This document shows positions 33,953-58,870 of a stretch of 64,000 nucleotides of DNA, one piece after another. The translations under genes were made by a program, and so were the position numbers. Under the pieces are notes generated by a model, which worked only from the letters and a program-made list of their open reading frames with translations, did no database searches and was not told where the DNA came from. Source of the DNA: Robiginitalea aurantiaca (lineage in GTDB: Bacteria; Bacteroidota; Bacteroidia; Flavobacteriales; Flavobacteriaceae); assembly GCF_030380815.1 (NCBI RefSeq), contig NZ_JAUDUY010000001.1, positions 496,001-560,000 on the forward strand, written 5' to 3'. The stretch's first letter is position 1; every line of letters starts with the position of its first letter.

Positions 33953-34010
33953 GCTGGAAGCTTTAAGTGCGGAAACCTGCTGCTTTTGTGATTCCAGAAA
34001 GTACCTTGAT

Positions 34011-34868
34011 TTAGAAATTTTTGGCACCCACAAAAGTTTGCATATCAAATCCCCCTATCCAGGGTTTTTGAGAGAAATGCCATAATTTAAAGCCAGCGTT
34101 TTTAAATAGCAAGGGATAGTTATGCGAAAAAGAGGGCTCATTTCCGTAAAGTTGCGAATGGGGAGTTGTTGATAAGTCATGATAATGACCGTTAGGCTCA
34201 ATAGTTATAAAGATGATTTTGCCCAATTGGTTGACTTCGTTTAAGAACCCTTGTAACTGGGTTTCGAGAAAATACTCTAAAGACTCATTTGAGAAGAATA
34301 TAGTATTTCCATGACCGTGTTCTTTAACCCATTCCATGGCATCTTCAGCAACAAACTCAAGCCTATTATTACCTTTGAATTTCCGTTTGTTAATTTCAAT
34401 CTGGTCAGGGCTTAGATCGATGCCGATAAGCCGTTTAAGAGCAGGAAATGCTGAACTGAGATAGTTTAGCGTATTTCCATTTCCTGTTCCTATTTCTACA
34501 AGAGTGTCAAATGATTCAGTTTGGTCAGCTATTTCATTTTTAAGTAAATCGAAAATAAACGTACTTTTTGGCAAGAAATTAGTTTCAAATCCGTCTTCTG
34601 TTTCTTCAAATAATTCGGTGGCATTATTGATCCAAAAATCGCGATTCGATTCTGCTATAGTATTGTAATCGTCTATTTTTTCCAGCTTTCTTACAAGTGC
34701 GGCCCGCATTAACCTTTCGGCGATGCTCATATGCTTTTTATTCTTATGAACCAGAGTGATTCTGTTTTTGGCAAGTTCACGTGCCTTTTTAGGTTGAATG
34801 AACACAAGGAAATTTCCTAAGGTTGCCGTGAGGCTTCTAATTAGAAGACTTTTTAATCTGTTCTTCAT
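34011..34868 (-). CDS. Class I SAM-dependent methyltransferase
   Basis: 285 residues from the ATG at 34868 (a longer frame starts at ATG 34904). SAM motif I is TLVEIGTGNGNTLNYL, followed by the acidic strand RLIGIDLSPDQIEINK and motif IV FFSNESLEYF. The first ~100 residues are basic and helical (NRLKSLLIRSLTATLGNF, KKARELAKNRI). Upstream are 500 AT-rich bases and then the NRPS-PKS cluster on the other strand; it may or may not belong to that cluster. Confidence 0.8.
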   Translation of the reverse strand: MKNRLKSLLIRSLTATLGNFLVFIQPKKARELAKNRITLVHKNKKHMSIAERLMRAALVRKLEKIDDYNTIAESNRDFWINNATELFEETEDGFETNFLPKSTFIFDLLKNEIADQTESFDTLVEIGTGNGNTLNYLSSAFPALKRLIGIDLSPDQIEINKRKFKGNNRLEFVAEDAMEWVKEHGHGNTIFFSNESLEYFLETQLQGFLNEVNQLGKIIFITIEPNGHYHDLSTTPHSQLYGNEPSFSHNYPLLFKNAGFKLWHFSQKPWIGGFDMQTFVGAKNF

Positions 34869-34904
34869 ATTCAAAGGGGTGCTGGTGTTTTGATCAAGAA
34901 ACAT

Positions 34905-35406
34905 CTGATGTAGTCAATGCGGGTATAGCTCCAATATATAAGTGGAAGGCTATGAATTCGTATAGGCTACTCAAACCGATTCTTAATAATTCAGTCCACA
35001 AATAGTGTAATTAAGTGACAATTTAAGCTATTCGACAATTTTATTTCTATTCGAGAATGATTTGTTTTTATTTTTGAAGCCAAAGCGTGGCTGAGTTGAC
35101 CGATAAAGGATTAACCATTATTTTGTGATAAAATGGGAGAGGAAACAAACTGGACCTAAGCTCCTATCTAAAGGTATGAGGAGTTTTTAAGGGTTTGTGT
35201 GCTTTTCTCAATTGTTTACGTTCATTATTGTCTTCCAAAGTAGTTTGTTTTTGGACCTTGACCACTGAAACAGCAAAGATTATTGCCTTATAATAAGAGG
35301 GACAAGTCCGATGAGTTCCTTTCCAAAGAGCAATTAGGAACCCATAAGTTTACTTACCCATAGAGGGAGTCTTTACAGCTGTAATTTTTAATAATGTGCG
35401 GTTTTA
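34905..35406 (+). other. AT-rich divergent intergenic region before the NRPS-PKS cluster
   Basis: About 500 AT-rich bases between the methyltransferase and the FemAB-like gene. No coding frame or RNA gene seen. It probably contains the divergent promoters and may be the left boundary of the accessory cluster; no direct repeats marking a boundary were found by eye. Confidence 0.35.
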
Positions 35407-36525
35407 ATGTTTAAGCAGAAGCAAATTGAATCACTAAAAATGGAGGAATTAAATGTTTATGAAATTTCCTCTTCAGAAGCTGTCGATCAATACAAGGATA
35501 TCCTTAAAGCCGTAGGCAATAACTGGCCCTATCTTCGGTATGAATTAATAAATGTAGGAATCCTCGAGGATTCCCAATTGATGTATTTTGTATATAGCGT
35601 CAATGAGGAGCCTTTGGTGTTAATGCCTTTTTATAAAAGGCGGATCAGTATTGGCAATCAGAGAACAGCATATTTTGATGTTATAAGTCCCTGGGGATAC
35701 GCCGGGCCAATATTTAAAGAGGCTATAGAGGAAAAGGTTGCCACTGCATTCTGGAGGTTGGCAGATGATTGGTACCGCGATAATAATATAGTCTCAGAAT
35801 TTATTCGCTTTCATTTTCAGGGGAACCATCTTTGTTATTCCGGAAGTGTTGCCCATACCCTGTACAATGTTCGGGGGGTCATACGGGAAAAAGAGGTAAT
35901 ATGGGATAACCTCCAGTCAAAAACAAAAAACAAGGTTCGAAACGCCTACAAGAACAACCTCAGGTTCTCTATGTTTCATGGAAGCATATCTCCTAAACAG
36001 GTTTCAGAATTCTACGAAATCTATATCAGTACGATGGATCGCAATGACGCAGCCGAATCGTTTTATCACGACCTGGCCTATTTTCAGGAATTTGTTAAGA
36101 ATAATTCCGATGGTTGCACTATCGGGATGGTTTATAAGGACGGCAGAGCCATCTCGACCGAGTTATTTCTGATATCCGAGGACACGGTATTTTCCTATTT
36201 TGGCGGGACCCTGGGGGAATTTTTTAAGCTCAGGCCGAATGATTTCCTGAAGATGGAAGCGATAAATTGGATGTATTTGAACGGATTCAAGTATTACGTG
36301 ATTGGAGGCGGGCTAAAGGAGCATGATAGCCTGTATCAATACAAGAAAAAGTTTTTTCGCTTCGATGAGGATCCAAGCTTCTTAAGCGGGCGAAAAATAG
36401 TGAATTTAGAAGTTTACAGGGAGTTGGTCGGCATGGCATTACCGGAAATTCCAATCTCTGAAATAACGCTGGATTCAGCAAGCACAGGGTTTTTCCCAAA
36501 ATATCGCAGCAAGAGAAACCGGTAA
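35407..36525 (+). CDS. FemAB-like / GNAT-fold acyl- or aminoacyltransferase
   Basis: 372 residues. WDNLQSKTKNKVRNAYKNNLRF (~170-190) is the typical N-terminal arm of FemAB-like proteins, GMVYKDGRAISTELFLISEDTVFSYFGGTL the GNAT-type core strand and PNDFLKMEAINWMYLNGFKYYVIGGG the C-terminal part of the Acetyltransf_6 / GNAT-like fold. These proteins transfer amino acids or acyl groups from tRNA, CoA or carrier proteins; the closeness to an NRPS-PKS pair suggests it acts on the assembly-line product, an inference only. ATG at 35443 is an alternative start. Confidence 0.78.
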   Translation: MFKQKQIESLKMEELNVYEISSSEAVDQYKDILKAVGNNWPYLRYELINVGILEDSQLMYFVYSVNEEPLVLMPFYKRRISIGNQRTAYFDVISPWGYAGPIFKEAIEEKVATAFWRLADDWYRDNNIVSEFIRFHFQGNHLCYSGSVAHTLYNVRGVIREKEVIWDNLQSKTKNKVRNAYKNNLRFSMFHGSISPKQVSEFYEIYISTMDRNDAAESFYHDLAYFQEFVKNNSDGCTIGMVYKDGRAISTELFLISEDTVFSYFGGTLGEFFKLRPNDFLKMEAINWMYLNGFKYYVIGGGLKEHDSLYQYKKKFFRFDEDPSFLSGRKIVNLEVYRELVGMALPEIPISEITLDSASTGFFPKYRSKRNR

Positions 36526-36958
36526 TCTTTTCCTGAGTGACTAGTGAAATCCCCCTTTTAACACAATGGTGATGGATTGCCCTAATCAGGATTGCGGGAG
36601 TTGCCCAATTCCATTTTTGGACTCTGGTATTCTGTAAAACATCCATATTTGATTAAGGGCTAATGAATTATCTGAATATATGGCAGAATGTGTTGAAAAT
36701 ACATAATGGCACAATGCACTCGTACGATAAAAGAAACATCTTATCTATTTTTGTGTATCCTGGTTAAATTTTTTCCGAAATTTAACTGGCTCATTATTAA
36801 AATTTTAAACACACGACCAGAACCCTATTCCCGTCATTTTCATTTTGAAGAAATAAAGTGGTCAATCGAAAAAAAAGGAAGTGGTAAGACAACTGGGCTA
36901 TAGTACTGACGCTACCATTTAGGAAGCTCGGCCAATTTTCAATAAAACTGCAAGAAAA
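36526..36958 (+). other. Intergenic stretch upstream of the PKS-NRPS gene
   Basis: About 430 AT-rich bases. A 65-codon frame at 36706-36903 has no recognisable pattern and was not accepted. The region probably holds the promoter of the 36959-49328 operon. Confidence 0.35.
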
Positions 36959-39900
36959 ATGAGTAAGCCAAATCAACTCTATCTCCTTTTTGAAAGAGCG
37001 GCAAGATTATTTCCTGATGAACGCTGTATTGTAAGTCAAGATGCTGAATTAACTTACAAGCAGACAGAACATGAGGCATTAAAGGTTTGCAATGCGGTTT
37101 TAAGCAGTGCCGGGGATGAGGATTTTATAGGCATCCCGACTACTCGGTCCATCGAGCAAATTATCTTTGTGCTTGGAGTGTTGAAAGCAGGCAAAACCTA
37201 TCTTCCAATTGATTTTGGATATCCCGAGAAAAGACTTCAAAGTATAATTGATAATTCACAACTTTCTTTTTGCCTGACTACGGAACAAGATGCGCATAAT
37301 GTCGCCTCAGCGGGCCTGAAACCCTTGTCCGTAAAGGAATCCAGTCAGCCACATAGTATTGAGTCCACGGAATTGAAAAAGAAGGATTTGATTACCTACA
37401 TTCTCTATACCTCAGGGTCCACGGGCGAACCTAAAGGGGTATGCATGGGTGAGGAAGCGACGGTAAATCTCATTAACTGGCAGAACAACAACTCTAATTG
37501 TCATGAAGGGACAAGGACACTGCAATTTGCACCTTTGAGTTTTGATGTCTCCTTTCAGGAGATTTTTTCCACATTGAGCACAGGGGGTACACTCGTGCTG
37601 ATAGATGAGGTACTAAGGCTTGATATGGCTGCCCTTTTAAACTTTTTAAAAGAGCAGGAGGTCAATAGGCTGTTTTTGCCCTTCGTGGCGCTACAAGCCT
37701 TAGCTGAAGCAGCCTTGAGCACCGAAACATACCCTACGGCGTTGAAAGAAGTAATGACCGCCGGGGAACAACTGAAAGTCACTTCTCAGGTGCGTCACTT
37801 TTTCTCAAGATTAAATGACTGCGTCCTCTTCAATCAATATGGACCAACGGAATGCCATGTGGTAACAGAACTCAAATTGGAGGGTCAACCTTCCGAATGG
37901 CCAGCGTTACCTACGATTGGTAAACCTATAACCAATACCTCTGTCTATATCCTTGATGAAAATCTGAATCTGTTGCCCGAGGGAAATGCGGGGGAACTTT
38001 GTATTGCAGGACGCTGTTTAGCCCATGGGTACCTAAATAACAAGGTGTTGACAGATGAAAAATTTATCCACTGGAAGTCTCCTGATAAAGGAAAGATTCG
38101 CATATACAGGACGGGAGATGTTGCGAAGTATCTGGCGGATGGAACTATTGAATTTCTCGGGCGCAGGGACGATCAGGTCAAGATTAGCGGACATAGAATA
38201 GAACTTGCGGAAGTAGAATTGGCCATCAACTCATTGGAGGGGATTCGGCAGACGGTAGTAGTAGCTTCAAACCATTTAGGAGGGCAAACCCAACTGGTTG
38301 CATATATGGAGTCCAGTAAGAAGGACTTCGATATTGCCGGTATTCGTCAGAAGGTTTCAATGTTGCTCCCGGATTATATGGTCCCTTCATATTATATGCG
38401 GGTAGAGGGATTTCGTAAAACGTCAAGTGGTAAAATTGACAGGAAGAAGTTGCCGGCACCTCAATTTGAAAGGCCTGGTTCATTCCCACCATTGAGAAAA
38501 CCAGTTACGAAAATTCAAAAGAACATAGCTAAAACCTGGATCGATATTCTGCAAATTCCTGAAATCGGTATTGACGATAACTTTTTTGAATTAGGGGGCA
38601 CTTCCTTACTGGCTCAAAAAGTGGTGGCCCTCCTGTTAAAGGAGTTCAACTATACGTTGCCTGTAACCAAACTCTACCAGTTTCCAAACATAGCCGGAAT
38701 ATCGGATTACCTGACACCTGCGAAGCCATCAGAACCTGAAGTACGCCTTAAAAAAGGTAAAGTTTCTAATTCCAACAGAGATGTCGCTATTATTGGAATG
38801 GCCGGAAGATTTCCCGGTGCCAGTACAATTGGGGAATTATGGAATGTATTGAAAGAAGGCAAGGAAACCATTTCATTTTTCTCAAAAGAGGAATTGGACA
38901 AGGCTATTCCAGAAACCTTGCGCAATGACCCACTTTATGTCGGAGCTCGGGGAATTCTGCCTTCCGCAAAAGAATTTGACGCCAGCTTTTTCGGGTTAAA
39001 TCCAATGGTCGCATCGGTTATGGACCCTCAGCAAAGGCTTTTTATGGAAATCTCCTGGGAGGTACTGGAACAGAGTGGTTATTTGCCCAGACATTACAAA
39101 GGCCGTGTAGGTGTTTATGCAGGTTGTGGACTCAATACGTATTATATAAATAACGTACTACCTAACACAGATGTAATTGAAAAAGTCGGTGAATTCCAGG
39201 CAAATACGGTTAATGAAAAGGACTATATAGCCACCCGGACCTCATACCACCTGAATCTCAAGGGGCCGGCTGTAAGTGTTCATTCGGCTTGTTCCACCTC
39301 ATTACTGGCCATTGCTGAGGCTACGGAGGCATTGAGAAATGGGCAGTGCGATATTGCTTTGGCGGGCGCAGCAAGTGTTACTTCCCCGATGAACAGTGGT
39401 CACCTATACCAGGAAGGATCCATAAAAAGCAAGGATGGGCATTGCAAACCTTTTGATGCTGATGGCAGCGGTACACTTTTCAGTGATGGCGCCGGAGTGG
39501 TTTTACTAAAAAATCTCGAACAGGCTGAAGCGGATGGCGATACTATCTATGGGCTCATCAAAGGTGTAGGCATCAATAATGATGGGGGTGATAAGGGAAG
39601 TTTTACGGCTCCCAGTGTAAAGGGCCAGGCTGATGCGATCCGTATGGCCATGGAGGATGCTGATGTTTCCCCATCTGAAATTAGTTATATAGAAGCCCAT
39701 GGTACTGCAACCCCTGTAGGCGATCCCATCGAGATTGAGGGGCTTGAAATGGCCTTTGGCGAACAAACTAAAAATAATTTCTGTGCCATTGGTTCCATTA
39801 AGAGTAATATGGGACATCTGACCTCGGCAGCAGGGGTAGCCGGTTTTATTAAAACCGTTCTCGCGTTTCGGCACCGTCAAATCCCGCCTTCACTTGGCTA

Positions 39901-42900
39901 TTCAAGACCCAATCCACTGATCGATTTTGACAACAAGCCATTCTTTGTGAACAATATCCTCAGACCATGGGACTCTGAAACAAAGCGAAAAGCAGGCATT
40001 AGTTCATTTGGGGTTGGGGGCACCAATGTCCATATAGTGGTTGAAGAATATGAAAATAAGGTCAGGCAAACAGATCAAGGGCGACCTGTACAACTCCTGA
40101 CATGGTCTGCCAAATCTCAAAACAGTCTTGAGGGATACCAAAAAGCCCTAGGGAATTACCTGACCGGAGTAAACGGAACGCCTTTGGCAGATATTGCTTA
40201 TTCACTTTCATTGACAAGGGATGTTTTTAACCAGAAGCGTTTTTTGGTTGCCTCCAGCCTCACTGGAGCTCAAGAAGAATTACTGGCTGAAGCAAGTAAG
40301 CAAATAAACTCCGGTACACTGAGGCAGATTTCCAGTGAACTGGGATTCCTTTTTCCAGGTCAGGGCTCCCAGTTTCTGCAAATGGGAAGAGAGCTGTACG
40401 AAAAGGAAATTGTTTTCAGAGAGGCTGTAGACAGGTGTGCTGCCCTTATTATGGAAGGATTCAAAATGGATATCAGAGAAGTGATTTTTCCGGATACCCC
40501 TTCGCCCGAAGCTGAGAACAAATTAAAAGACACCCGATATACCCAGCCAGCATTATTTATTATTGAGTATGCCCTTGCACAATTGTGGTACAGTTGGTCC
40601 ATTGAGCCCACCTTTGTATGTGGCCATAGTATCGGTGAGTTTGTCGCTGCACATCTGGCAGGAGTTTTCACACTTCCCGATGCACTGAAGTTAATAACCC
40701 TGAGGGGGAAACTCGTCAGCGAGCTTCCCGGCGGCAGCATGCTCTCGGTAAGGGCCTCTGCAGAAGACATTTTTGATCTACTACCTGAGGGCTTGTCCAT
40801 GGCTGCCATTAATTCGGATAACTTATGCGTGGTATCCGGGCCAGATGAAGAAATCGAGCAGTTTGCCCAGGATTTAAAGGCAGGGGGGATTGCCAACATG
40901 TTGCTTGCCACGAGCCATGCCTTTCATTCTACAATGATGGAGCCTATATTGGAAGTGTTTGAAAATGAGGTTAAAAAAATTGCTTTAAGCCCTCCTCAGT
41001 TACCTATTATTTCAACAGTAACGGGTAAGTTTCTCAGTCAGGAGGAAGCCACTGACCCGAGGTACTGGACAGATCATTTACGCGAAGCTGTTCGCTTTTC
41101 AGACGCTTTGGATACCATCATTGATTTAGATGAAAGTGTCACTTTGCTGGAAGTCGGACCCGGTCGTGCCCTATCGACTCTGGCCAGGCAGAAGAAAGGT
41201 GGGAAATCCCTGGTGCCAATTACAAGTTTAACAGTTCCGAAAGCAGGTGAAAATGCCTATCATACCGTACTGACGGGACTGGGCCAGTTGTGGCTAAAAG
41301 GTATAGAACCGGATTGGAATGCATTTTATAAGGGTCAGTCCAGGCAGAAAGTTATGCTTCCTTCCTACGTTTTTAACCGGAAGACCTGCTGGATCGATCC
41401 TCCGGAACTTAACCTTGCAGGCGCAAATTCTTCTACAAAAGTTTACGAGTCAATTCCCAATGCAACTTCAGAAATTGCCCTTGGGCAGGAACAGCCTGAT
41501 GCAGTTAAGGCCCTTCAAATGAATTCGATTATGAGAAAAGACATTATCCTACAAAAAATTTCAGATATAATTTCAGAGATTTCAGGAATAGAGATAGAAT
41601 CAGGAGATTCACAATATAGCTTTCTGGAACTCGGGCTAGATTCTTTGGTGCTTACCCAAATGGCGACCACTTGTAAAAAAGAATTTGAAACAGCCATTAC
41701 GTTTCGGCAGTTGAGTGATGACTTAAACAGTCCTGAGCTTTTGGCCAGTTATCTGGACAAAACCCTTCCTGAGGAGCGCTTTGCTCCTGAGCCTGAAAGT
41801 AGTCCTGCTCCTGTACGCACACCTGTTACCGGAAATCCAGGCTTTGCGAACCCCGTGCAAATGCCCCAACAGCCACTGAATGCCAATTATGATCATTCAG
41901 CTCTGGGTCTTATTGCCCAGCAACTACAGCTATTAGGTCAACAGATTAACCTGTTGCAGAGCAATGGGCCAGTGCAGACTGGAAATGTGATCCCCCCGAA
42001 TGAAGGAGCAATGCCTTCACCAGCAGTAGGTACAAATGACAACTCAGATTTAGGGAAAAACTCAACCGTTGATGTAAATGAAGATTCATTGACTGAAGAA
42101 GAAAAGGCAGAACTGAAAAAGCCATTTGGGGCTTCTCCCAGAATTGAAAGGCAAACCAAAGTAGTGGAATCAGAGCATGAAGCGTTTCTGCAGGAGCTGG
42201 TTCGGCGGTATAACACCAAAACAGCCCTGAGCAAGGAATATGCTCAAAAACATCGTGCCCACATGGCCGATCCGAGGGTTGTGACCGGTTTTAAGCCGGG
42301 GACAAAAGAATTGGTTTATCCTATTGTTATAGAAAAATCCGCTGGTAACCGACTTTGGGATTTGGATGGCAATGAATATATAGATGCCTTAAATGGATTC
42401 GGATCGTGTTTGTTTGGACACCAACCTGATTTCATAAAAGAGGTTTTGCATGCCCAGATAGAACAGGGGTACGAAGTGGGTCCACAGCATCCTATGGCCG
42501 GGGAGGTGTGCGAGCTGCTTTGCGAGTTTACCGGCCATGAACGGGCTGCCCTGTGTAATACAGGTTCCGAGGCGGTCCTGGGAGCTGTCCGGATTGCCCG
42601 AACCGTTACGGGTCGCTCATTGATAGTATCTTTTAAAGGCGCATACCACGGTATCAATGATGAGGCGTTGGTCAGGGGATCTAAAAAATTAAAGACTTTT
42701 CCTGCCGCGGCAGGCATTCTATCTGATTCCGTTCAGAACGTTCTGGTACTGGAGTACGGAACCGATGAAAGTCTTCGAATAATCAGAGAAAGAGCTCATG
42801 AACTGGCCGCCGTTCTTGTTGAACCCGTCCAAAGCCGGAGACCTGAGTTTCGCCCTGTTGAATTCCTGAGAGAGGTTCGAGCGATAACAAAAGCCTCTGA

Positions 42901-43672
42901 AACGGTGCTCATCTTCGATGAAGTTATTACCGGTTTCAGAATGCACCCTGGAGGGGCGCAAGCCCTGTTTGATATCAAGGCAGATGTAGCCACTTACGGT
43001 AAGGTAATCGGTGGAGGTATTTCCATTGGAGCTATTACAGGTGACAGTGATTATATGGACGCTTTGGACGGTGGATTCTGGCGATTCGGGGACCAGTCTT
43101 ATCCTGAAAAGGGTGTCACCTATTTTGCAGGTACTTTTGTAAGACACCCATTGGCACTCGCAGCTGCGAAAGCGTCATTACTGCGTATGCGGGAGAAAGG
43201 GGACGCCCTGCAAAACCAACTTAATACCCTAACCGAGAACTATGCCAATGACCTCAATGCCGAGTTTAAAAAGCGTAAGTTGCCCATGGAAATTTGCTAT
43301 TTTGGGTCTTTGTGGCGATTGAAATTCCTTGAGGATATTCCGTATTCCGAATTGCTTTTTGTTTTACTCAGGGAAAAGGGTATTCATATCTGGGATGGTT
43401 TCCCATGTTTTATGACCACTTCTTTTAATGCAGAAGACATAAGTAGACTCAAAAATGCGTTTATGGGCAGCATTGAAGAACTAATGGCGGCATCCATTTT
43501 GAAATCAGATGAAGTTAATGCTGATCCAATTTCAAATGGAATCTCAACAGTTAAAGCTTTAAATGAACCGCCTGTACCGGGCGCGCGTTTGGGAATTGAT
43601 GAAGCGGGTAACCCTGCCTGGTTTATAAAGGATAAAGGGAAGAATGGGTCCTTCACAAAAATTAAACTTTAA
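36959..43672 (+). CDS. Hybrid NRPS-PKS megasynthase: A-PCP-KS-AT-ACP-aminotransferase
   Basis: 2237 residues. Adenylation domain ~1-500 (ILYTSGSTGEPKG near 147, QYGPTECHV near 294, GRRDDQVKISGHR near 401, A10 SSGKIDRKK near 490); carrier Ser549 in FFELGGTSLLA; ketosynthase ~606-1030 with Cys778 (VHSACSTSLL), His914 (EAHGTATPVGD) and His953 (NMGHL); acyltransferase ~1127-1430 with Ser1224 (GHSIGE) and HAFH, a malonyl signature; carrier Ser1562 in LELGLDSLV; a Gln-rich linker; class III aminotransferase ~1770-2180 with PLP-lysine Lys2015 (ATYGKVIGGG). No KR, DH or TE. Proposed: loads an amino acid, extends with malonate, converts the beta-ketone to an amine. The specificity code reads approximately DVQFMAQVVK, proline-like, weak. 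Confidence 0.93.
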   Translation: MSKPNQLYLLFERAARLFPDERCIVSQDAELTYKQTEHEALKVCNAVLSSAGDEDFIGIPTTRSIEQIIFVLGVLKAGKTYLPIDFGYPEKRLQSIIDNSQLSFCLTTEQDAHNVASAGLKPLSVKESSQPHSIESTELKKKDLITYILYTSGSTGEPKGVCMGEEATVNLINWQNNNSNCHEGTRTLQFAPLSFDVSFQEIFSTLSTGGTLVLIDEVLRLDMAALLNFLKEQEVNRLFLPFVALQALAEAALSTETYPTALKEVMTAGEQLKVTSQVRHFFSRLNDCVLFNQYGPTECHVVTELKLEGQPSEWPALPTIGKPITNTSVYILDENLNLLPEGNAGELCIAGRCLAHGYLNNKVLTDEKFIHWKSPDKGKIRIYRTGDVAKYLADGTIEFLGRRDDQVKISGHRIELAEVELAINSLEGIRQTVVVASNHLGGQTQLVAYMESSKKDFDIAGIRQKVSMLLPDYMVPSYYMRVEGFRKTSSGKIDRKKLPAPQFERPGSFPPLRKPVTKIQKNIAKTWIDILQIPEIGIDDNFFELGGTSLLAQKVVALLLKEFNYTLPVTKLYQFPNIAGISDYLTPAKPSEPEVRLKKGKVSNSNRDVAIIGMAGRFPGASTIGELWNVLKEGKETISFFSKEELDKAIPETLRNDPLYVGARGILPSAKEFDASFFGLNPMVASVMDPQQRLFMEISWEVLEQSGYLPRHYKGRVGVYAGCGLNTYYINNVLPNTDVIEKVGEFQANTVNEKDYIATRTSYHLNLKGPAVSVHSACSTSLLAIAEATEALRNGQCDIALAGAASVTSPMNSGHLYQEGSIKSKDGHCKPFDADGSGTLFSDGAGVVLLKNLEQAEADGDTIYGLIKGVGINNDGGDKGSFTAPSVKGQADAIRMAMEDADVSPSEISYIEAHGTATPVGDPIEIEGLEMAFGEQTKNNFCAIGSIKSNMGHLTSAAGVAGFIKTVLAFRHRQIPPSLGYSRPNPLIDFDNKPFFVNNILRPWDSETKRKAGISSFGVGGTNVHIVVEEYENKVRQTDQGRPVQLLTWSAKSQNSLEGYQKALGNYLTGVNGTPLADIAYSLSLTRDVFNQKRFLVASSLTGAQEELLAEASKQINSGTLRQISSELGFLFPGQGSQFLQMGRELYEKEIVFREAVDRCAALIMEGFKMDIREVIFPDTPSPEAENKLKDTRYTQPALFIIEYALAQLWYSWSIEPTFVCGHSIGEFVAAHLAGVFTLPDALKLITLRGKLVSELPGGSMLSVRASAEDIFDLLPEGLSMAAINSDNLCVVSGPDEEIEQFAQDLKAGGIANMLLATSHAFHSTMMEPILEVFENEVKKIALSPPQLPIISTVTGKFLSQEEATDPRYWTDHLREAVRFSDALDTIIDLDESVTLLEVGPGRALSTLARQKKGGKSLVPITSLTVPKAGENAYHTVLTGLGQLWLKGIEPDWNAFYKGQSRQKVMLPSYVFNRKTCWIDPPELNLAGANSSTKVYESIPNATSEIALGQEQPDAVKALQMNSIMRKDIILQKISDIISEISGIEIESGDSQYSFLELGLDSLVLTQMATTCKKEFETAITFRQLSDDLNSPELLASYLDKTLPEERFAPEPESSPAPVRTPVTGNPGFANPVQMPQQPLNANYDHSALGLIAQQLQLLGQQINLLQSNGPVQTGNVIPPNEGAMPSPAVGTNDNSDLGKNSTVDVNEDSLTEEEKAELKKPFGASPRIERQTKVVESEHEAFLQELVRRYNTKTALSKEYAQKHRAHMADPRVVTGFKPGTKELVYPIVIEKSAGNRLWDLDGNEYIDALNGFGSCLFGHQPDFIKEVLHAQIEQGYEVGPQHPMAGEVCELLCEFTGHERAALCNTGSEAVLGAVRIARTVTGRSLIVSFKGAYHGINDEALVRGSKKLKTFPAAAGILSDSVQNVLVLEYGTDESLRIIRERAHELAAVLVEPVQSRRPEFRPVEFLREVRAITKASETVLIFDEVITGFRMHPGGAQALFDIKADVATYGKVIGGGISIGAITGDSDYMDALDGGFWRFGDQSYPEKGVTYFAGTFVRHPLALAAAKASLLRMREKGDALQNQLNTLTENYANDLNAEFKKRKLPMEICYFGSLWRLKFLEDIPYSELLFVLLREKGIHIWDGFPCFMTTSFNAEDISRLKNAFMGSIEELMAASILKSDEVNADPISNGISTVKALNEPPVPGARLGIDEAGNPAWFIKDKGKNGSFTKIKL

Positions 43673-43682
43673 AAAACATTTT

Positions 43683-44579
43683 ATGGCTACCAAGGTTGTT
43701 GAATTAGTTAACAATGGCGTACTATCCGTTGAGAAGAAATACGGTATGTCCTATGAGGAATTTGCAAAGGATCACCTGTTTGGTGATTACCCTGTGGTCA
43801 TTGGAGATGCCTGTAAGGAATGGACCGCAAAAGAAAAATTTACCCCGGAATTTTTTAAGTCCGAATATGGCAATCGAAAAGTAGAGGTGCAAGGTCAGGA
43901 GTATAACCTCAAAGATTTTATTGAGATAATGGAAGAATCTACTATGGATAATCCGGCGCCTTATCCCTGTAAACTTCAAATTGACAGGGATTATCCGGAA
44001 TTGATACCTGACATATCACCAAGATTTATGTATGCAAAGCCAGATTGGTGCCATAATCCAATGGTGGAACCCCTATTAGGAAATGCCGACACATATGAAA
44101 TATTCCTCGGCAGCCCGGGAGGACAATTTCCATATGTGCATTACGATTATTTAGGCTTGCATGCCTTTATAACGCAGTTGTACGGGGTAAAGGAATTTAC
44201 TGTAATTCCACCAGATCAGACCCCTTATGTATACCCTAAAGAAAATAATTCATGGGTTTCTGAAGTGCCGGATATTAAGAATGTAGATCTGGAAAAGTAC
44301 CCTCTTTGCGCTAATATTACTCCTATTACCTTCACAGTAGGTCCCGGAGAAACACTTTTCATTCCGAATGGTTGGTGGCATACTGCTAAATCTTTAACGG
44401 TAACAATTTCCGTTGCATTAGATTCTTTAAATACCTCTAATTGGGAGAGGTTTAAAATGGAGGTAACAACAAAAGTGGACAATAAAACCAATGCTGCTGT
44501 TGCTAAAATGGTAGGTGCCTATCTTTCCGTAGCGGGAGGTGTATTGCGAAGAACGAAAAATAAGGTTCGGCAGGCCTGA
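43683..44579 (+). CDS. JmjC/cupin-8-type Fe(II)/2-oxoglutarate oxygenase
   Basis: 298 residues from the ATG at 43683, 10 bases after the megasynthase stop. Iron-ligand triad His153-x-Asp155 (VHYDYLG) and His233 (NGWWHTAKSL), with the double-stranded beta-helix core YEIFLGSPGG..LHAFITQLYGVKEFTVIPP and TFTVGPGETLFIPNGWW. This is the cupin-8/JmjC family of oxygenases, which in natural-product clusters hydroxylate amino acid side chains or beta carbons of carrier-bound residues. Placement between the two megasynthase genes makes it a tailoring enzyme of the pathway. Confidence 0.88.
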   Translation: MATKVVELVNNGVLSVEKKYGMSYEEFAKDHLFGDYPVVIGDACKEWTAKEKFTPEFFKSEYGNRKVEVQGQEYNLKDFIEIMEESTMDNPAPYPCKLQIDRDYPELIPDISPRFMYAKPDWCHNPMVEPLLGNADTYEIFLGSPGGQFPYVHYDYLGLHAFITQLYGVKEFTVIPPDQTPYVYPKENNSWVSEVPDIKNVDLEKYPLCANITPITFTVGPGETLFIPNGWWHTAKSLTVTISVALDSLNTSNWERFKMEVTTKVDNKTNAAVAKMVGAYLSVAGGVLRRTKNKVRQA

Positions 44580-44611
44580 TAAAATCTATTTATACAGCAA
44601 CTAAATCTGCT

Positions 44612-47600
44612 ATGCAAGATGTAATAACTTTCAACCCATTTACGGGTCCCGTCATTGAAAAGGTTATTCCCATTGTTCAAGCTCAGTCCGAAATATGGAC
44701 GGCCTGTATGTTTGGTGGAAAAGATGCCAACAGGGCGTACAACGAGTCGATTTCCCTTGTTTTAAAAGGAGACCTAAACAGGGAGGTCCTTGAGGATGCC
44801 ATTGATAGACTTATCCTGCGCCATGATGCCCTCCGTGCCACCTTTAGCGCCGATGGACGCTTTATGACGGTGTTTGAAGAACTCCCTGCAGATTTCGCCT
44901 TTCAGGACCTCTCTGATCTAAATACGGGGGATCAGGAAACTGCGGTTAAAGAGTATTTGTCCAAGGATGCCAATAACGTTTTTGACCTGATAAAAGGGCC
45001 GTTGCTCAAGATAGGGTTGCTCAAGCTTTCCGGGCAGGAACACCATCTGGTAATCACTGCACATCATATCATATGCGACGGGTGGTCTATGGGAATAATT
45101 CTGGAGGAATTGGGAAAAATCTATTCCGCTTCTCTTTCAGGAGAATCTCCTGTTTTTCCCCAACACGATACTTTTGGATCCTATGCTGATGCCGAGCTAG
45201 CGTTTATTAGCAGTCCGGAATTTATTAAAACTGAAAAATTTTGGCTTAATCAATATAAAGAATCAGTACCCGAAGTAAGCCTTCCAACAGATTTCCCGCG
45301 ACCCCAGGTTCGGACTTTTAAAAGCCATCGATTGGATTTTGAAGTTGAAAGTGACCTGATAGCCGATTTGAAAAAAGTGGGTATAAAGTCCGGCGCGAGC
45401 CTTGTGGTCACCTTGATGGCGGCATTTGAGGTTTTTCTGAATCGAATTACCGGACAACAGGATTTGGTATTGGGTTTGCCAGCGGCCGGCCAATCCCTTA
45501 CGGGAATGACCCAATTGGTTGGGCATTGCGTGAATTTACTTCCTTTGCGCACCAGGATATATCCCGATACCCCGTTTACGGAATATTTGCAAAATAGAAA
45601 GTCTGCAATTTTTGATGCCTATGAGCATCAGCAGTTTAGTTTCGGGCAATTGCTTCAGAAGCTCCCCATTTCAAGAGATCCTTCCAGAGTTCCCCTGGTG
45701 CCGGTTACATTCAACATAGATATGGGAATGGACAGCGCCGTTGCTTTTGACGGTCTGGACTTTGAGCTGAAGAGCAATCCCAGGGCTTTTGAGACCTTTG
45801 AACTTTTTTTAAATGCCACGGGACGGGAAGATGCGTTTATTTTGGAGTGGTCCTACAACAGTTCCCTTTTTAAACCCACGACTATCGCCCAAATGATGAC
45901 TTCTTTTAAAGAAGTCTTACAGGGTATTGTGGCTGATCCGGGAAGGGCTATTGGGGATTTAATCAAAGTAGACACCTCGGCCTACGAAGTTTTGAACAAC
46001 ACCGGTGCTGATTATCCCCAACTTCCCTTGCATGAACTTCTTGCAGCACAGGCACTTAAAACTCCCCAAAATCAGGCGTTGAAATTTGGGAATGATGCGC
46101 TTTCTTATGTAAAGCTTGAAAAAAGTGCAAATCAACTGGCGAATTACCTCGCTTCGCAGGGCGTTGGTACTGGTGATTATGTGGCAGTTTTGTTGCCCCG
46201 GTCGATAGAACTTGTCCAAACGCTTATCGCCATAATGAAATGTGGTGCCGCATATCTTCCTTTGGATCCTGATTACCCTGCCAGGCGTTTGGAATTCATG
46301 TTGGAGGATTCAGGGGCTGCGAATTTAATTACCTCCAGAAAGGTGGCATCATCCATTGAATCTGAAGCCAGGTCTTTGCTGATAGAGGATATTTTACCCG
46401 ACCTTCCAAAATATCCCGATACTCCACCGCCTGTCAAAGTTGACAATAAGGAGTTAGCATATATATTATACACCTCTGGTTCAACCGGTAAGCCAAAGGG
46501 GGTTCCCGTCACCCATGGGAACCTGGTCAATTTCTTGCATAGCATGCAACGGGAACCGGGTATTGAAGAAACCGACAGGTTACTTTCAATAACGACCATT
46601 TCCTTTGATATTGCTGGCCTTGAATTGTTTATGCCACTCTTAAAAGGGGCCACGGTGGTATTGACAAGTGAAGAGAACTCCAGAGATAGCCGACTCTTAA
46701 TGGATGTAATGAAGGAGGAGGAAATAACCGTGATGCAAGCGACTCCTACCACGTGGCAAATGCTGCTGGATGCCGGGTGGCAAAAACCATTGCCTATCAA
46801 AGCACTCTGTGGGGGAGAAGCACTACCGATGTCTTTGGCCAAAAGCATATTGGAAAGGGTAGAGGAGCTATGGAATATGTACGGACCTACAGAAACCACC
46901 ATTTGGTCTGCGGTCAAACAGGTTTTGAAGTCAGACGATTTAATTACCGTAGGTCGTCCTATTGCAAACACCCAGCTTTATATTGTCAATGAGTACACCC
47001 AGTTGGTGGAACCAGGTAAAATCGGAGAGCTTTGTATTGCCGGGGATGGTGTTGCCACGGGATATTGGAAAAGACCGGTGCTGACCGCGGAAAAGTTTAT
47101 TGCAAACCCTTTTAGTCCGGAAGTTGGCAATGTTCTTTATCGAACCGGGGATTTGGCCAAACTGCTACCTTCCGGAGAAGTCCAGTGCCTTGGCCGGATT
47201 GATCAACAGGTAAAAATAAGGGGACACCGCATTGAGCTGGGTGAAATAGAGCAAGCCCTTGATGCACTGGAAGGAGTACAATCTTCTGTGGTGATTTTTA
47301 ATGAGGGCAGATTGGTTGCCAACCTGATTCCAACGGGCTTGGGAAGTCCGGATTCCGATCAGGTCAAAGGATATAAGGATATCCTTAGCCAACAATTGCC
47401 TGCCCATATGGTGCCACAACAATTCATTTTTGTAGAGGCGTTTCCAACAACACTTAATGGCAAAATTGACCGTAAGGCCCTGCAAAGTCTTTACGGGAAA
47501 AAATTAGAAAAAGCAGCATTTGAAAATCCCGAGACGATATCTGAAAAAATCATTGCCGCCATATGGCAGGAGCACTTGAAAATTGATCCAATCGATGTCA

Positions 47601-48589
47601 ATGGTGACTTTTTTGAGCTTGGAGGGCATTCATTAATTGCGGTTAGGGTAATGACCCAACTTGAGAAAGAGACCGGGAATAGATTACCCCTGGTGGCCCT
47701 GCTTGAAAATCCTTCAGTTAAAAAGCTGGCTGCCTACATGGACAGTGCGTTCGTCACCTGGGATTCCCTCGTACCCTTAAAACCGAAAGGCACGAAGGTG
47801 CCTTTGTATATTGTCCACGGGGCTCATCACAACGTCTTTATTTTTAACGATTTGGCGAAACTTTTGGACGTTGAGCAACCGGTATATGCATTACAACCCA
47901 AAGGGTTGGACGGAGTTTCGGAACCCTTTGATACCATTGAAGAAATGGCCGCACATTACATTTCTGAAATTCAAGCGGCGCATCCTGAGGGACCCTATGC
48001 CCTTGCCGGATTTTCAATGGGAGGTATTGTCGCCTATGAAATGTCACGACAATTAAGGGCCCAGGGTAAACAGGTCAAAAACCTGTCAATGTTTGATGCC
48101 TATGTATTCCCGATGTACTACTTCAGGAATCCATTAATGAAAAAGATTGTCTCCTTACTCTATCTGATTGGAAAGATCTTCTTTATGATTTTGAATATGT
48201 TCAGCAGTAAGAAGAATTTTAAACGCAGAATTCAATTGACCTACCAATCGGTCTCGGGAGTATTTTTAAGGTTAAAAGTAGGCAGGGAGAAGCAGCATGA
48301 AATGCAGCACAATCGCTCTTATAAAATGGATTCAATGCACAATCTGGCTACACATCGTTATACCATCGAACCTCAGGATATCGTTTTAGATATATTCAGG
48401 TCCTCAGAAGAAATCAATTTTGTGCACGATTCCAATTTTCTAGGATGGAAAAAAATTGCAAGAAAAGGCATTCGCAAACACATGGTCCCGGGAAATCATA
48501 TCGACATGTTTGCTCCTCCAAATGTCGACGCGTTTGCCAAGCAACTTCAATACGTCCTGGACAATTATAATTCTGATCGCATTGAGTAG
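44612..48589 (+). CDS. NRPS module C-A-PCP-TE
   Basis: 1325 residues. Condensation domain ~1-450 with HHxxxDG at His151-His152...Asp156; adenylation ~470-960 (LAYILYTSGSTGKPKG, NMYGPTETTIW, the A8 LGRIDQQVKIRGHRIELGE, A10 NGKIDRK); carrier Ser1007 in FFELGGHSL; thioesterase ~1070-1325 with nucleophile Ser1135 in AGFSMGGI and a lysine/hydrophobic lid after it. The eight pocket residues plus Lys read approximately D-I-L-Q-L-G-M-I-W-K, one residue from the published glycine code, so glycine is predicted. Joins the upstream diamino acyl chain to glycine and releases it. Its 3' end overlaps the PPTase gene. Confidence 0.93.
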   Translation: MQDVITFNPFTGPVIEKVIPIVQAQSEIWTACMFGGKDANRAYNESISLVLKGDLNREVLEDAIDRLILRHDALRATFSADGRFMTVFEELPADFAFQDLSDLNTGDQETAVKEYLSKDANNVFDLIKGPLLKIGLLKLSGQEHHLVITAHHIICDGWSMGIILEELGKIYSASLSGESPVFPQHDTFGSYADAELAFISSPEFIKTEKFWLNQYKESVPEVSLPTDFPRPQVRTFKSHRLDFEVESDLIADLKKVGIKSGASLVVTLMAAFEVFLNRITGQQDLVLGLPAAGQSLTGMTQLVGHCVNLLPLRTRIYPDTPFTEYLQNRKSAIFDAYEHQQFSFGQLLQKLPISRDPSRVPLVPVTFNIDMGMDSAVAFDGLDFELKSNPRAFETFELFLNATGREDAFILEWSYNSSLFKPTTIAQMMTSFKEVLQGIVADPGRAIGDLIKVDTSAYEVLNNTGADYPQLPLHELLAAQALKTPQNQALKFGNDALSYVKLEKSANQLANYLASQGVGTGDYVAVLLPRSIELVQTLIAIMKCGAAYLPLDPDYPARRLEFMLEDSGAANLITSRKVASSIESEARSLLIEDILPDLPKYPDTPPPVKVDNKELAYILYTSGSTGKPKGVPVTHGNLVNFLHSMQREPGIEETDRLLSITTISFDIAGLELFMPLLKGATVVLTSEENSRDSRLLMDVMKEEEITVMQATPTTWQMLLDAGWQKPLPIKALCGGEALPMSLAKSILERVEELWNMYGPTETTIWSAVKQVLKSDDLITVGRPIANTQLYIVNEYTQLVEPGKIGELCIAGDGVATGYWKRPVLTAEKFIANPFSPEVGNVLYRTGDLAKLLPSGEVQCLGRIDQQVKIRGHRIELGEIEQALDALEGVQSSVVIFNEGRLVANLIPTGLGSPDSDQVKGYKDILSQQLPAHMVPQQFIFVEAFPTTLNGKIDRKALQSLYGKKLEKAAFENPETISEKIIAAIWQEHLKIDPIDVNGDFFELGGHSLIAVRVMTQLEKETGNRLPLVALLENPSVKKLAAYMDSAFVTWDSLVPLKPKGTKVPLYIVHGAHHNVFIFNDLAKLLDVEQPVYALQPKGLDGVSEPFDTIEEMAAHYISEIQAAHPEGPYALAGFSMGGIVAYEMSRQLRAQGKQVKNLSMFDAYVFPMYYFRNPLMKKIVSLLYLIGKIFFMILNMFSSKKNFKRRIQLTYQSVSGVFLRLKVGREKQHEMQHNRSYKMDSMHNLATHRYTIEPQDIVLDIFRSSEEINFVHDSNFLGWKKIARKGIRKHMVPGNHIDMFAPPNVDAFAKQLQYVLDNYNSDRIE

Positions 48590-49328
48590 CCTGTTTTGTC
48601 AATCGACCGAAATAACAGAATCTGGCAAAAAGAAGCTGAAACAAGACGGGGGATCCGGAATCCTTTTATTTAAGGTTGAATTAAAAAAGTATTACAGCGC
48701 AATTGCCACGTTTTTGGGCATTTTGGATGATGACGAATTGCAGAGGGCTCATAGATATCACTTTTTAAAAGACAAAAACCGGTTTATCATTTGCCGGGCC
48801 TTTCTGAAAATGGCCCTTTCGAAAACTACCGGCACCAACCTTTCCGATATCCGAATCGATACGGGCCATAATAAGAAGCCTGTTCTGTCCTCGCATCCTG
48901 ATGTTTTTTTTAATGTCTCTCATTCCGGCCAATACGCCCTGATAGCGATTGGCGACAAACCTGTAGGTGTCGATGTAGAAAGGGTAAACAGGGAATTTGA
49001 TTTTTCGGATATCAAAGTAAAAATTTTCAATCCAAAAGAGCGGCAGGTACTGGATTTTGCTGCAGACACAGAAAGACAATTTTACGAATTCTGGACCCGA
49101 AAGGAGGCCGTGCTAAAGGCCACAGGAAAAGGAATCGACGACGATTTTGCTCAAATTCCTGCTACAGATGGATTTCATGAACTGGAATCCGGAATTCTCG
49201 GTAAGGCTTCGGATTTTGTCGTGATGAGTTTTGAAGTAGACGCCGAACATATGGGAGCCATAGCCATTGAAGGGCGTTATGAAGAATTTAGTTGGAATCC
49301 CCTCTATACTCCTCTGCCGATATTCTAG
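48522..49328 (+). CDS. 4'-phosphopantetheinyl transferase (Sfp type)
   Basis: 268 residues from an ATG at 48522. Core Sfp blocks: FNVSHSGQYALIAIGDKPVGVDVE and FYEFWTRKEAVLKATGKG. Activates the carrier domains of the two megasynthases by attaching phosphopantetheine. The start is uncertain: the homologous region begins near ILLFKVELKKYYSA, no ATG lies between the NRPS stop (48587-48589) and there, so the options are ATG 48522 (overlapping the NRPS by 67 bases), or TTG 48582 just before the NRPS stop. Clearly part of the operon. Confidence 0.88.
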   Translation: MSTRLPSNFNTSWTIIILIALSSLFCQSTEITESGKKKLKQDGGSGILLFKVELKKYYSAIATFLGILDDDELQRAHRYHFLKDKNRFIICRAFLKMALSKTTGTNLSDIRIDTGHNKKPVLSSHPDVFFNVSHSGQYALIAIGDKPVGVDVERVNREFDFSDIKVKIFNPKERQVLDFAADTERQFYEFWTRKEAVLKATGKGIDDDFAQIPATDGFHELESGILGKASDFVVMSFEVDAEHMGAIAIEGRYEEFSWNPLYTPLPIF

Positions 49329-49418
49329 GGTGTGCTATTTAATTAACTTATAAGAGCGCCGGCAATCACCTTAAAGAAATGGTGCTGTTTGGAAGGAAAC
49401 AAGAATCTGGCGCACCCT

Positions 49419-50516
49419 TTAATGGAGAACCTGCGAGTACTGCTGTATCCAGGAATTAATACAACCCGCAATATAAGTCATGTCATTTTCTGAATATCTC
49501 AGATCGATGTGAATGTTCATCAGGTATTTATAGCCCCCGGAATTCACGGTATCCGGCCAAAGTTCTGCCGGATAAATAGAATGGGATATCAGATATTTTT
49601 TTAACTCCTGAAAGCCATCCCGATCTTTAAAAGCCAATAATAATCCAAAAGGGGTATAGCTGCCATTTTGGAGTATTTTGAAGAAGGAGTTCTCATCTAT
49701 TTTTGGTGCCAGAATTTTGAAATTCTTTGCTTTTACGGAATTATAATCCCTGAATGCGTAATTTTCCAGTACCCCCTTCTTATCTGAGGCCACAGGTAAT
49801 ACATCAAAATGAATTTGCAATATTGCCTCGCCTTTTGAATGCAGGTTGAGGTACGCGCTTTTTTCAGAGACACTACGGCATTGCCTTTTACTGCGCATGG
49901 CCTCTGCAAGCGTTTCCCAGCAAAGTTCCATGCCTTTGTCATCAACTCCAACTTCATTCCGATTTTCTCCAAGGGGAATTGCGGAGGCACTCAATTTTGG
50001 TTTCCAGGCGATCCCCCCTAAGGGCAGGGGTACGGTTTTGCGCAGGGACGCAATACAGAAGTCTGCCGTACTCTCCAGGCATCCTTTGCTAAGCCAGCCA
50101 TGGGAATGATCTTCAATGACTACGGGTCTTTGCCCACCGGGAATGCGGCTTGTTTTGATTCCCCAGTAATTGTTCACAATAAGCACATCATTGGCATTCC
50201 TGAATTCCGACCAGTTAATTTCGGTTCCGTGATCAAAAGAGTCCAAAGTGTAGTACTCAATATTGTTGAAGTTGTGCTCCAGCCATGCCTTTACGAAAGG
50301 ACAATAATAATAGGGGATCCAGATTGTTTCAATGGGCCTGTAGGCTTCAATCCTGGAGAAGATATACTTAATGGCATTGCGACCCGAGTAGAATAATTCG
50401 TACTCAGCATCAAATTCTATTTTTGGTAAAGACTCTACTTCGGACAAAGGAATCTCGTGAAAAAATGAACCATATCCGACAATTTCGTTATTCATAGAGG
50501 GTAAAGTAAATTCCAT
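49419..50516 (-). CDS. DegT/aminotransferase-like PLP enzyme, unknown substrate
   Basis: 365 residues from the ATG at 50516 (the frame extends to a TTG at 50534; ATG 50495 is also possible). FYSGRNAIKYIFSRI, VVIEDHSHGW and the Lys in CIASLRKTVPLPLGGIAW (a PLP-lysine-type loop) are the DegT/DnrJ-like fold-type I features. It converges on the NRPS operon with 90 bases between and ends the accessory cluster, so it may supply or modify a building block; its strand and spacing are against cotranscription. Function inferred. Confidence 0.72.
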   Translation of the reverse strand: MEFTLPSMNNEIVGYGSFFHEIPLSEVESLPKIEFDAEYELFYSGRNAIKYIFSRIEAYRPIETIWIPYYYCPFVKAWLEHNFNNIEYYTLDSFDHGTEINWSEFRNANDVLIVNNYWGIKTSRIPGGQRPVVIEDHSHGWLSKGCLESTADFCIASLRKTVPLPLGGIAWKPKLSASAIPLGENRNEVGVDDKGMELCWETLAEAMRSKRQCRSVSEKSAYLNLHSKGEAILQIHFDVLPVASDKKGVLENYAFRDYNSVKAKNFKILAPKIDENSFFKILQNGSYTPFGLLLAFKDRDGFQELKKYLISHSIYPAELWPDTVNSGGYKYLMNIHIDLRYSENDMTYIAGCINSWIQQYSQVLH

Positions 50517-50634
50517 ATCTAATGTAAAAACCAAGTCACCATAGATCCTACTCAGAATTCCAAAGATCTAAAGACCAGTTTTTCTATGCTCCAACTAGGA
50601 CACCTAAGATAGATATAAGAAGATGCTACATATG

Positions 50635-51333
50635 TTAGTTCAACAATTCTGTGCTTTTTAAATCTATATGCTCAATCGTATCTGAAATGTATAGTAAAAG
50701 CGCATAAATAAAAATAGCCACTCCAACCATTTCAAAAAGTTCTTCTACTGTGCAAATAATGTAAAAGACAAGGTTTTCCTGACCGTGCAACTCATCATAA
50801 TACCCACTTACTGACTCGATTCCAATAGCTCCAAAAACAAAAACAAATCCGGATAAAATAAATAGCCACCTTATTTTTTTCGGTAACCTCATCAAAAATT
50901 TGGAATAAATAAAAAGCAAAATTAATAACAGGATACCATAGGGAATGTACCAGGCATAGTAGAGTAGGCCTGTAGTATTAAATAGTTTATGAGTAGGCAT
51001 CCATAGCTGTTCATGAATCATTGTAATTTCATCAATAGATAAAAACACAAAAATGAAAGCTAACCCTTTCCATTGAAAGTGCTCCAGCCTATTCGTTTTA
51101 TGAAAATAGGAAATGATAAAAAGTAAAAGACCACTTGAAAGAAGGGCTAAAGAGGAATAAAATGTGGGTAAATTTCCTTCGTGATCAAAATCGAAGAAAT
51201 AAATAATATTCTTAAAAACACCATTAATGCCTAATACTTTCAAGGCGACTGCTATTATATTGCATATCAGTAATATGAATATAAATATCAATAGATTGTA
51301 AAATACTTTTTTAGGATTGAAATATAAATTCAT
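50635..51333 (-). CDS. Multi-pass membrane protein, unknown
   Basis: 232 residues, about seven membrane helices, AT-rich. Conserved-looking polar residues inside helices: FLSIDEITMIHEQLW (~98-112), FGAIGIESVSGYYDE and TVEELFEMVGVAIFIYALLLY near the C-terminus, an acidic/His set that may be a metal or proton site. No family recognised with confidence. Composition is more AT-rich than PEP synthase next to it. It is downstream of ppsA on the same strand. Confidence 0.7.
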   Translation of the reverse strand: MNLYFNPKKVFYNLLIFIFILLICNIIAVALKVLGINGVFKNIIYFFDFDHEGNLPTFYSSLALLSSGLLLFIISYFHKTNRLEHFQWKGLAFIFVFLSIDEITMIHEQLWMPTHKLFNTTGLLYYAWYIPYGILLLILLFIYSKFLMRLPKKIRWLFILSGFVFVFGAIGIESVSGYYDELHGQENLVFYIICTVEELFEMVGVAIFIYALLLYISDTIEHIDLKSTELLN

Positions 51334-51414
51334 AAGTCTTTATTTCGCTCCTTAAATTAATTAAAATATGTCACTCAGACATTGAGAAAATGACGAACGG
51401 TAGGATTTACCGAT

Positions 51415-58791: not shown

Positions 58792-58870
58792 CTATCTTAG
58801 ACTTTTAGTGGTTAATTGTGCATTACGCACTTTATACATACGTTAACCTTAATTACGAAAATGATTGATC

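Follow-up and report, generated by a model that had tools for sequence, protein, structure and literature searches.

A two-enzyme polyketide synthase-nonribosomal peptide synthetase line with a fused aminotransferase in Robiginitalea aurantiaca and its possible link to surface glycans

What do two adjoining assembly-line genes in the flavobacterium Robiginitalea aurantiaca make, and is their arrangement new? The genes lie in a 64,000-nucleotide stretch of contig NZ_JAUDUY010000001.1 (C11:496001-560000; genome size 3.46 Mb), which was analysed at full length and is called the window here. They encode a polyketide synthase (PKS) with adenylation (A), peptidyl carrier (PCP), ketosynthase (KS), acyltransferase (AT), acyl carrier (ACP) and aminotransferase (AMT) domains, and a nonribosomal peptide synthetase (NRPS) with condensation (C), A, PCP and thioesterase (TE) domains. 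We consider it probable that they form a two-enzyme, aminotransferase-containing PKS-NRPS with its AT in cis, whose product combines proline, malonate, a beta-amine and glycine and is likeliest a glycan acyl group or co-product. The core line spans 36959-48589 and has a 4'-phosphopantetheinyl transferase (PPTase) next to it; its open reading frames (ORFs) and domains are as follows, with protein lengths in amino acids (aa).

36959-43672, + strand: PKS ORF A-PCP-KS-AT-ACP-AMT, 2237 aa (Pfam)
36959..38473, + strand: A domain 1 (A1, loading), proline-like code DVQ(L/F)MAQVV (Pfam; code; solved-structure matches TycB and GrsB)
38501..38734, + strand: PCP 1 (Pfam; Ser549)
38771..40048, + strand: ketosynthase (Pfam; Cys778, His914, His953)
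40334..41308, + strand: acyltransferase, motifs GHSIG and HAFH (Pfam; Ser1224, His1323, Arg1249)
41546..41788, + strand: ACP (Pfam, two PP-binding stretches; Ser1562)
42239..43438, + strand: class III aminotransferase domain, AMT (Pfam Aminotran_3; Lys2015, Asp1987)
43644..44579, + strand: JmjC/Cupin_8 oxygenase, start possibly 43683 (Pfam Cupin_8, 4.1e-28)
44612-48589, + strand: NRPS ORF C-A-PCP-TE, 1325 aa (Pfam)
44657..45970, + strand: condensation domain (Pfam; His151, His152, Asp156)
46043..47491, + strand: A domain 2 (A2), glycine-like code DILQLGMIW (Pfam; code)
47543..47746, + strand: PCP 2 (Pfam; Ser1007)
47795..48541, + strand: thioesterase (Pfam; Ser1135, Asp1162, His1296)
48456..49328, + strand: PPTase, start uncertain (Pfam ACPS; NCBIfam HetI/AusB-like below cut-offs)

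ORF calls and Pfam searches bear out the ORFs and domains that an earlier note, made from the letters of this DNA, had placed here. The order is a FemAB/GNAT-like ORF, A-PCP-KS-AT-ACP-AMT, Cupin_8/JmjC, C-A-PCP-TE, the PPTase and a minus-strand ORF for a putative pyridoxal phosphate (PLP) enzyme, with Pfam E-values of 6e-15 to 1e-91 for the core domains. The note's statement that all catalytic residues are present is true of the sites checked, 12 of 12 in the PKS and 8 of 8 in the NRPS. A PF00668 search of the entire genome found a single condensation domain, the one at 44657..45970. The AMT is of class III, has the PLP lysine and is fused after KS-AT-ACP; its closest solved relative is the AMT of mycosubtilin synthase MycA (6kfm, also 6kfr and 6kfu; E 1.5e-109 over about 426 residues). 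No ketoreductase is among the Pfam matches of the 2237-aa PKS at E<=1e-3, so a beta-ketone should be available to the AMT. We take the AT motifs GHSIG and HAFH to be of malonyl type. The PPTase has a candidate TTG start at 48584 that overlaps the NRPS stop. The Bacteroidetes promoter consensus has three matches in 64 kb, with a mean of 2.55 in shuffled sequence, and no promoter is claimed from it.

Family genomes are those flagged as belonging to the family of the window's own genome. A KS-to-AMT query against 299 of them, own included, matched 28 at E<=1e-60, and near-full-length KS-to-AMT orthologues with 59-66% identity occur in 11 of the 298 others; these orthologues and the Pfam E-values together exclude a chance match. 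In a twelfth other genome (G246) the match spans KS to ACP without the AMT. Loci were fetched for these 12 genomes as stretches of 17-20 kb, with one 6-kb contig (L020) left out of locus counts. The C-A-PCP-TE gene adjoins the PKS in all 11 orthologous loci unbroken by a contig end; in one of them (L030) it precedes the PKS, which there opens with a C domain. Companion genes have homologues in some of these loci, namely the methyltransferase at 34011 (7/11), the PPTase (6/11) and the JmjC oxygenase (1/11; L032, between PKS and NRPS). The G246 locus (L034, 5180-10426) has an orthologous PKS of 1748 aa that has no AMT and retains its C-A-PCP-TE partner, and its product should therefore keep the beta-ketone.

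A wider scan of genome contigs with an AMT alignment extends the distribution beyond the family. Named relatives among the best 80 of 585 include Winogradskyella, Pedobacter, Mucilaginibacter, Spirosoma and Lysobacter as well as Xenophilus, Ideonella, cyanobacteria, Pirellulaceae and Rhizobium; the nearest are from Winogradskyella (76% and 74% identity), and from L094 onward identity is only 31-36%. When 76 loci were mapped with models built from the orthologues, 36 had a frame reading exactly A-PCP-KS-AT-PCP-AMT. Three plasmids stand among the relatives: Spirosoma pSLIN02 (L008, 13929-20750), with no NRPS partner detected by these models in 34.7 kb around the PKS, and two Variovorax plasmids (L009, L010). 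A homologous gene, annotated in Variovorax as a type II restriction endonuclease, is common to both phyla on these plasmids. A viral origin of the PKS was considered and rejected: a scan of viral contigs with the PKS gave two pattern matches, neither encoding a relative.

Is the layout new? MycA, the source of the nearest solved AMT, starts from a fatty acid and goes on into a longer lipopeptide, in which it differs from the line in the window. A 2013 survey (PMC3870968) describes the role of the MycA AMT, with Gln as amine donor, and its Table 2 gives the Pedobacter heparinus line C6XWU5 as A-CP-KS-AT-CP-PLP1 with the antiSMASH label 'Nrp-Mal-Gly-Pk'. That line has the same layout, the same Aminotran_3 domain and the same amino acid-malonate-glycine order as the window; the comparison is by layout, since the catalogue row names no product and gives a generic A1 specificity. 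The domain layout is thus already catalogued, and the earlier note's view that such a minimal set was unknown in these bacteria is not supported, given this row, the 11 other family genomes, and Winogradskyella, Pedobacter, Mucilaginibacter and Spirosoma. The microginin (mic) line (PMC2739229, PMC12250027) has a KS-AT-ACP-AMT that likewise makes a beta-amino acid and is followed by NRPS modules and a TE; microginin starts from octanoate through a fatty acid-AMP ligase (FAAL) and an ACP and has two to six NRPS modules, whereas the window line loads an amino acid by A-PCP and has one. No FAAL-type fatty-acid starter is seen in the window, where A1 is an amino-acid A domain with a proline-like code. 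The floridanemamide and tychonamide lines share an AMT-made beta-amino polyketide unit within a PKS-NRPS hybrid and differ (PMC13252402) in a keto-acid-derived starter, three extensions, a monooxygenase combined with the AMT, 11 amino acids and a cyanobacterial origin. The open-access literature searched yielded no characterised product of this line family and no paper for the A-domain code strings or for TIGR04325 with a PKS.

Which building blocks would the two A domains select? A1 scores above the TIGR01733 cut-off and retains the Asp235 and Lys517 positions, as an amino-acid A domain does. Its code DVQ(L/F)MAQVV, taken from motifs and a MAFFT alignment with position 331 in a gap, is near the canonical proline code. 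The best single-stretch solved matches of its specificity core are TycB (223.7 bits) and GrsB (199.6), compared with 165.8 for TycA, and the matched TycB and GrsB chains are presumably proline modules. LgrA chains come out higher through the summing of two domains, their two printed stretches being 138 and 139 bits. The A1 of L026, which is of another type, reaches only 162.0 with TycB, which is not at the top of its ranking. We infer from these comparisons that A1 loads proline or a near relative. The A2 code, DILQLGMIW, obtained in the same way, is near the canonical glycine code, and the survey's label for the P. heparinus layout likewise names Gly after the malonate. Among the 55 loci in which a script rule recognised a downstream C-A module, the first downstream A domain begins DILQxG in 29 (tallied from the listing), and a lenient pattern of our own definition fits 38.

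The loading A domain varies more than its surroundings. L026 and L027 are 85% identical in KS and 84% in AMT but 32% in the A core, and L027 is 70% identical to the window in the A core and merely 71% in KS. Compared over 60 residues at a time, L026 and L027 share 16-55% ahead of residue 600, and the stretches printed for 601-1161 give 65-95%. Four A1 groups can be recognised among the orthologues by A-core identity. This pattern fits recombination of the loading domain and suggests that lines orthologous in their other parts have traded their A1.

A pathway can be proposed in which domain order, intact active-site residues and orthology are observed and substrates, product and tailoring are predicted. 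The PPTase would charge the carrier domains, and A1 would put proline, or an amino acid much like it, on PCP1. KS-AT would extend by one malonate to 3-oxo-3-(pyrrolidin-2-yl)propanoyl-ACP, and the AMT would turn the beta-ketone into an amine to give a beta,gamma-diamino acyl chain. C-A2-PCP would append glycine, and the TE would release 3-amino-3-(pyrrolidin-2-yl)propanoyl-glycine (C9H17N3O3, [M+H]+ 216.13) or its lactam (198.12). The JmjC oxygenase may hydroxylate the product (232.13) and the methyltransferase may methylate it. The module logic of the earlier note (a loading unit, one malonate, beta-transamination, a glycine-like A2 and TE release) is supported by the analysis, including the nearness of the AMT to that of MycA. 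Going by association only, the product's likeliest place is in a cell-surface glycan, as an acyl group or as a co-product, and the FemAB-like and sugar-aminotransferase-like proteins beside the line would then work on the sugar side. The two flanking genes are listed here.

35407..36525, + strand: FemAB/GNAT-like aminoacyl transferase (Pfam Acetyltransf_6/FemAB, FemAB above cut-off)
49419..50534, - strand: PLP enzyme, predicted fold like that of sugar aminotransferases (AlphaFold, Foldseek)

The FemAB-like model, with a pLDDT of only 73.2, matches FemX 4ii9 in Foldseek (E 1.7e-14, TM-score 0.56/0.61, root-mean-square deviation (rmsd) 6.8). The PLP ORF has no Pfam or NCBIfam match at E<=1 and so is not placed in the DegT/DnrJ/EryC1/StrS family by these searches, and its AlphaFold model (pLDDT 83.9; Foldseek WlaRG, E 7e-10, TM-score about 0.5, rmsd 10.6) predicts a fold that resembles the sugar aminotransferases of that family. 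Asp142 and Lys166 are invariant across 11 sequences and probably have the PLP roles. A search of 397 family genomes, with the window's among them, finds relatives of this ORF in 24; the sample differs from the 299 of the PKS search. Ten of the 23 other PLP loci were fetched (L149-L158, 20 kb each), and all ten have a sugar-transferase-like gene (34-42% to PF02397 members by BLAST) and a FemAB relative (35-43% identity in nine loci, 25% in L153); for G213 a PF02397 search agrees with the BLAST assignment. Relatives of the window's two flanking proteins therefore occur together in polysaccharide-type loci elsewhere, within 20 kb as in the window, which differs in having no known sugar-transferase gene. 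In L150 (11296-12987), near the PLP enzyme and the sugar-transferase gene, a FemAB domain shares one protein with an N-terminus of PglD type and hexapeptide repeats, and a Cupin_8 gene follows. Stand-alone AMP-binding enzymes are present in L151 and L154 (Pfam), the latter also with a formyltransferase, and L156 has a similar ORF by eye. No ORF longer than 1400 aa is listed in L149-L158, where KS and C models were not searched.

Does the line itself keep company with glycan genes? For 34 named genomes, hand-picked and mostly with longer contigs (34 of 59 loci L035-L093), AMT positions were compared with those of PF02397 sugar transferases, ignoring kinship and with contig ends hiding some neighbours. 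A PF02397 gene lies within 20 kb of 15 of 36 AMT loci (expected 0.94; maximum 7 in 20,000 simulations) and within 40 kb of 18 (expected 1.85). Control NRPS loci, hand-grouped and more than 40 kb from an AMT, have one within 20 kb in 1 of 15 and within 40 kb in 3 of 15 (one-sided Fisher p 0.013 and 0.045). Neighbours in some of the AMT loci include sugar transferases, glycosyltransferases, a flippase and a chain-length-type protein. Within the family, PF02397 occurs within 40 kb in 4 of 12 other line-bearing genomes (G184, G286, G172, G140), and Wzz, Wzc-like, glycosyltransferase or GDP-mannose dehydratase genes stand beside the line in L028, L029, L030 and L033. Similar lines are thus often near surface-polysaccharide genes, and the product may therefore decorate cell-surface sugars. 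The glycan link is unproven: it is a family-wide statistical association together with the identity of the flanking genes, and for the window a proposal. Membership of XrtA/PEP-CTERM systems is not claimed, as the matches of some relatives' neighbours to TIGR03100/TIGR03101 are far below cut-off. The open-access entries listed, judged partly from titles and the starts of abstracts, contained nothing on a polysaccharide link of this line family.

Several observations weigh against this assignment and favour other readings in different degrees. Around the PKS of the 11 orthologous family loci, in stretches of 17-20 kb, no homologue of FemAB or of the PLP enzyme is present, ten of these loci lack the JmjC gene, and of the 12 other line-bearing family genomes only G213 is PLP-positive, on a different contig. 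The two proteins are rejected as constant cluster members, and the earlier note's inclusion of them survives in one respect, that they share the 20.3-kb segment missing from the congener G340 (see below). The nearest PF02397 gene in the window's genome is about 430 kb away and the window has no known sugar transferase, which weighs against a simple locus-based glycan claim; by eye, the neighbours in L024, L026, L031 and L034 are not polysaccharide-like. There is an appreciable chance, somewhat short of even, that the line makes a small molecule that diffuses freely (a protease inhibitor, signal or antibiotic), comparable to microginin, with FemAB and PLP as passengers of the segment. The C-terminal TE of the NRPS, the occurrence of line and methyltransferase among such non-polysaccharide-like genes in several family genomes, and the KS-AT-ACP-AMT logic shared with microginins (PMC12250027) agree with a free product, as does the lack of FemAB and PLP homologues just described. 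It is harder to reconcile with the sugar transferase within 20 kb of 15 of 36 other lines, with the finding that in 26 of 34 sampled named genomes any condensation domain detected (E<=1e-20) lies within 40 kb of the line, unlike usual natural-product producers, and with a segment on which no exporter was identified, though the protein at 50635 is probably a membrane protein and that at 51415 was not searched against families.

A role as metal chelator, for example for copper, is improbable. Vicinal amines can bind metals, and genes for a multicopper oxidase, copper ATPase, copper oxidase or cupredoxin are neighbours of the PKS on Spirosoma pSLIN02 and the two Variovorax plasmids; this neighbourhood was seen in three plasmids and counted nowhere else, and no copper-resistance gene is among the 20 window proteins scanned. 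The building blocks could also differ in detail, with another cyclic or modified amino acid as starter or a second block other than glycine, which we regard as possible and rather unlikely. Two A1 residues, Q322 and M299, do not fit the canonical proline code, A1 types vary widely among orthologues, 17 of 55 loci are non-glycine-like even under the lenient pattern, and the second A domain is proline-like in Pedobacter L037, L038 and L064; the codes themselves were read from motifs and an alignment with a gap at A1 position 331. The TycB and GrsB A domains, as best single-stretch solved matches, argue for proline. The proline-malonate-beta-amine-glycine product with a glycan destination remains our preferred reading. 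It can be generalised, tentatively and with more doubt than conviction, to widespread small PKS-NRPS lines that make beta,gamma-diamino-acyl-glycine units for surface glycans. Swapping of A1 between lineages would change the side chain in such a family, the glycine module being mostly retained, and the FemAB-like and sugar-aminotransferase-like enzymes of the window would attach the unit to an amino sugar. Should the glycan link be true, exopolysaccharides or lipopolysaccharides could be modified by assembly-line enzymes, and exchange of the A domain would switch the side chain; otherwise, these lines are an intact, widely distributed family for which the open-access literature searched held no characterised product. 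The two-gene size makes the line directly testable.

How did the line reach this genome? Three further features belong to this question.

33937..54278, no strand: segment carrying the cluster, absent from congener G340 (blastn)
34011..34904, - strand: SAM methyltransferase, frequent companion of the PKS, 297 aa (Pfam Methyltransf_25)
50635..51333, - strand: probable membrane protein (by eye), GC 30.3%

The flanking genes are contiguous (L144) in G340, whose M14 gene (89%) is the most similar among the congeners, and 132 bp replace the 20,342 bp of window 33,937-54,278 (blastn). Of ten genomes of the genus, one of them just 74% complete, only that of the window has the PKS. Loss of the segment from G340 is the less simple explanation of its absence, because the other eight congeners also lack the PKS. 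GC content is 42.7% in the segment, against 45.7% in the left and 44.2% in the right flank. The segment may have come together stepwise, since a PEP-synthase-like gene on it (51415-53877, named by eye) has its orthologue elsewhere in G340 (L148), where it adjoins a gene whose start resembles, by eye, a polysaccharide biosynthesis protein.

The methyltransferase at 34011 also has homologues in two Winogradskyella loci and no match to TIGR04325, to which the Variovorax methyltransferases belong. Near the methyltransferase, L024, L025, L026, L035 and L036 share a protein of about 265 aa with a weak Rce1-like match below cut-off (tested in L035). The protein at 50635..51333 has no Pfam family at E<=1e-3, only weak matches below cut-off. 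To the right of the segment, the ORFs at 54341-55090 and 55269-56018 are tandem paralogues with a near-identical N-terminus, present as a single copy at the matching G340 site, and 58865-60229 encodes a PF00144 (Beta-lactamase family) protein.

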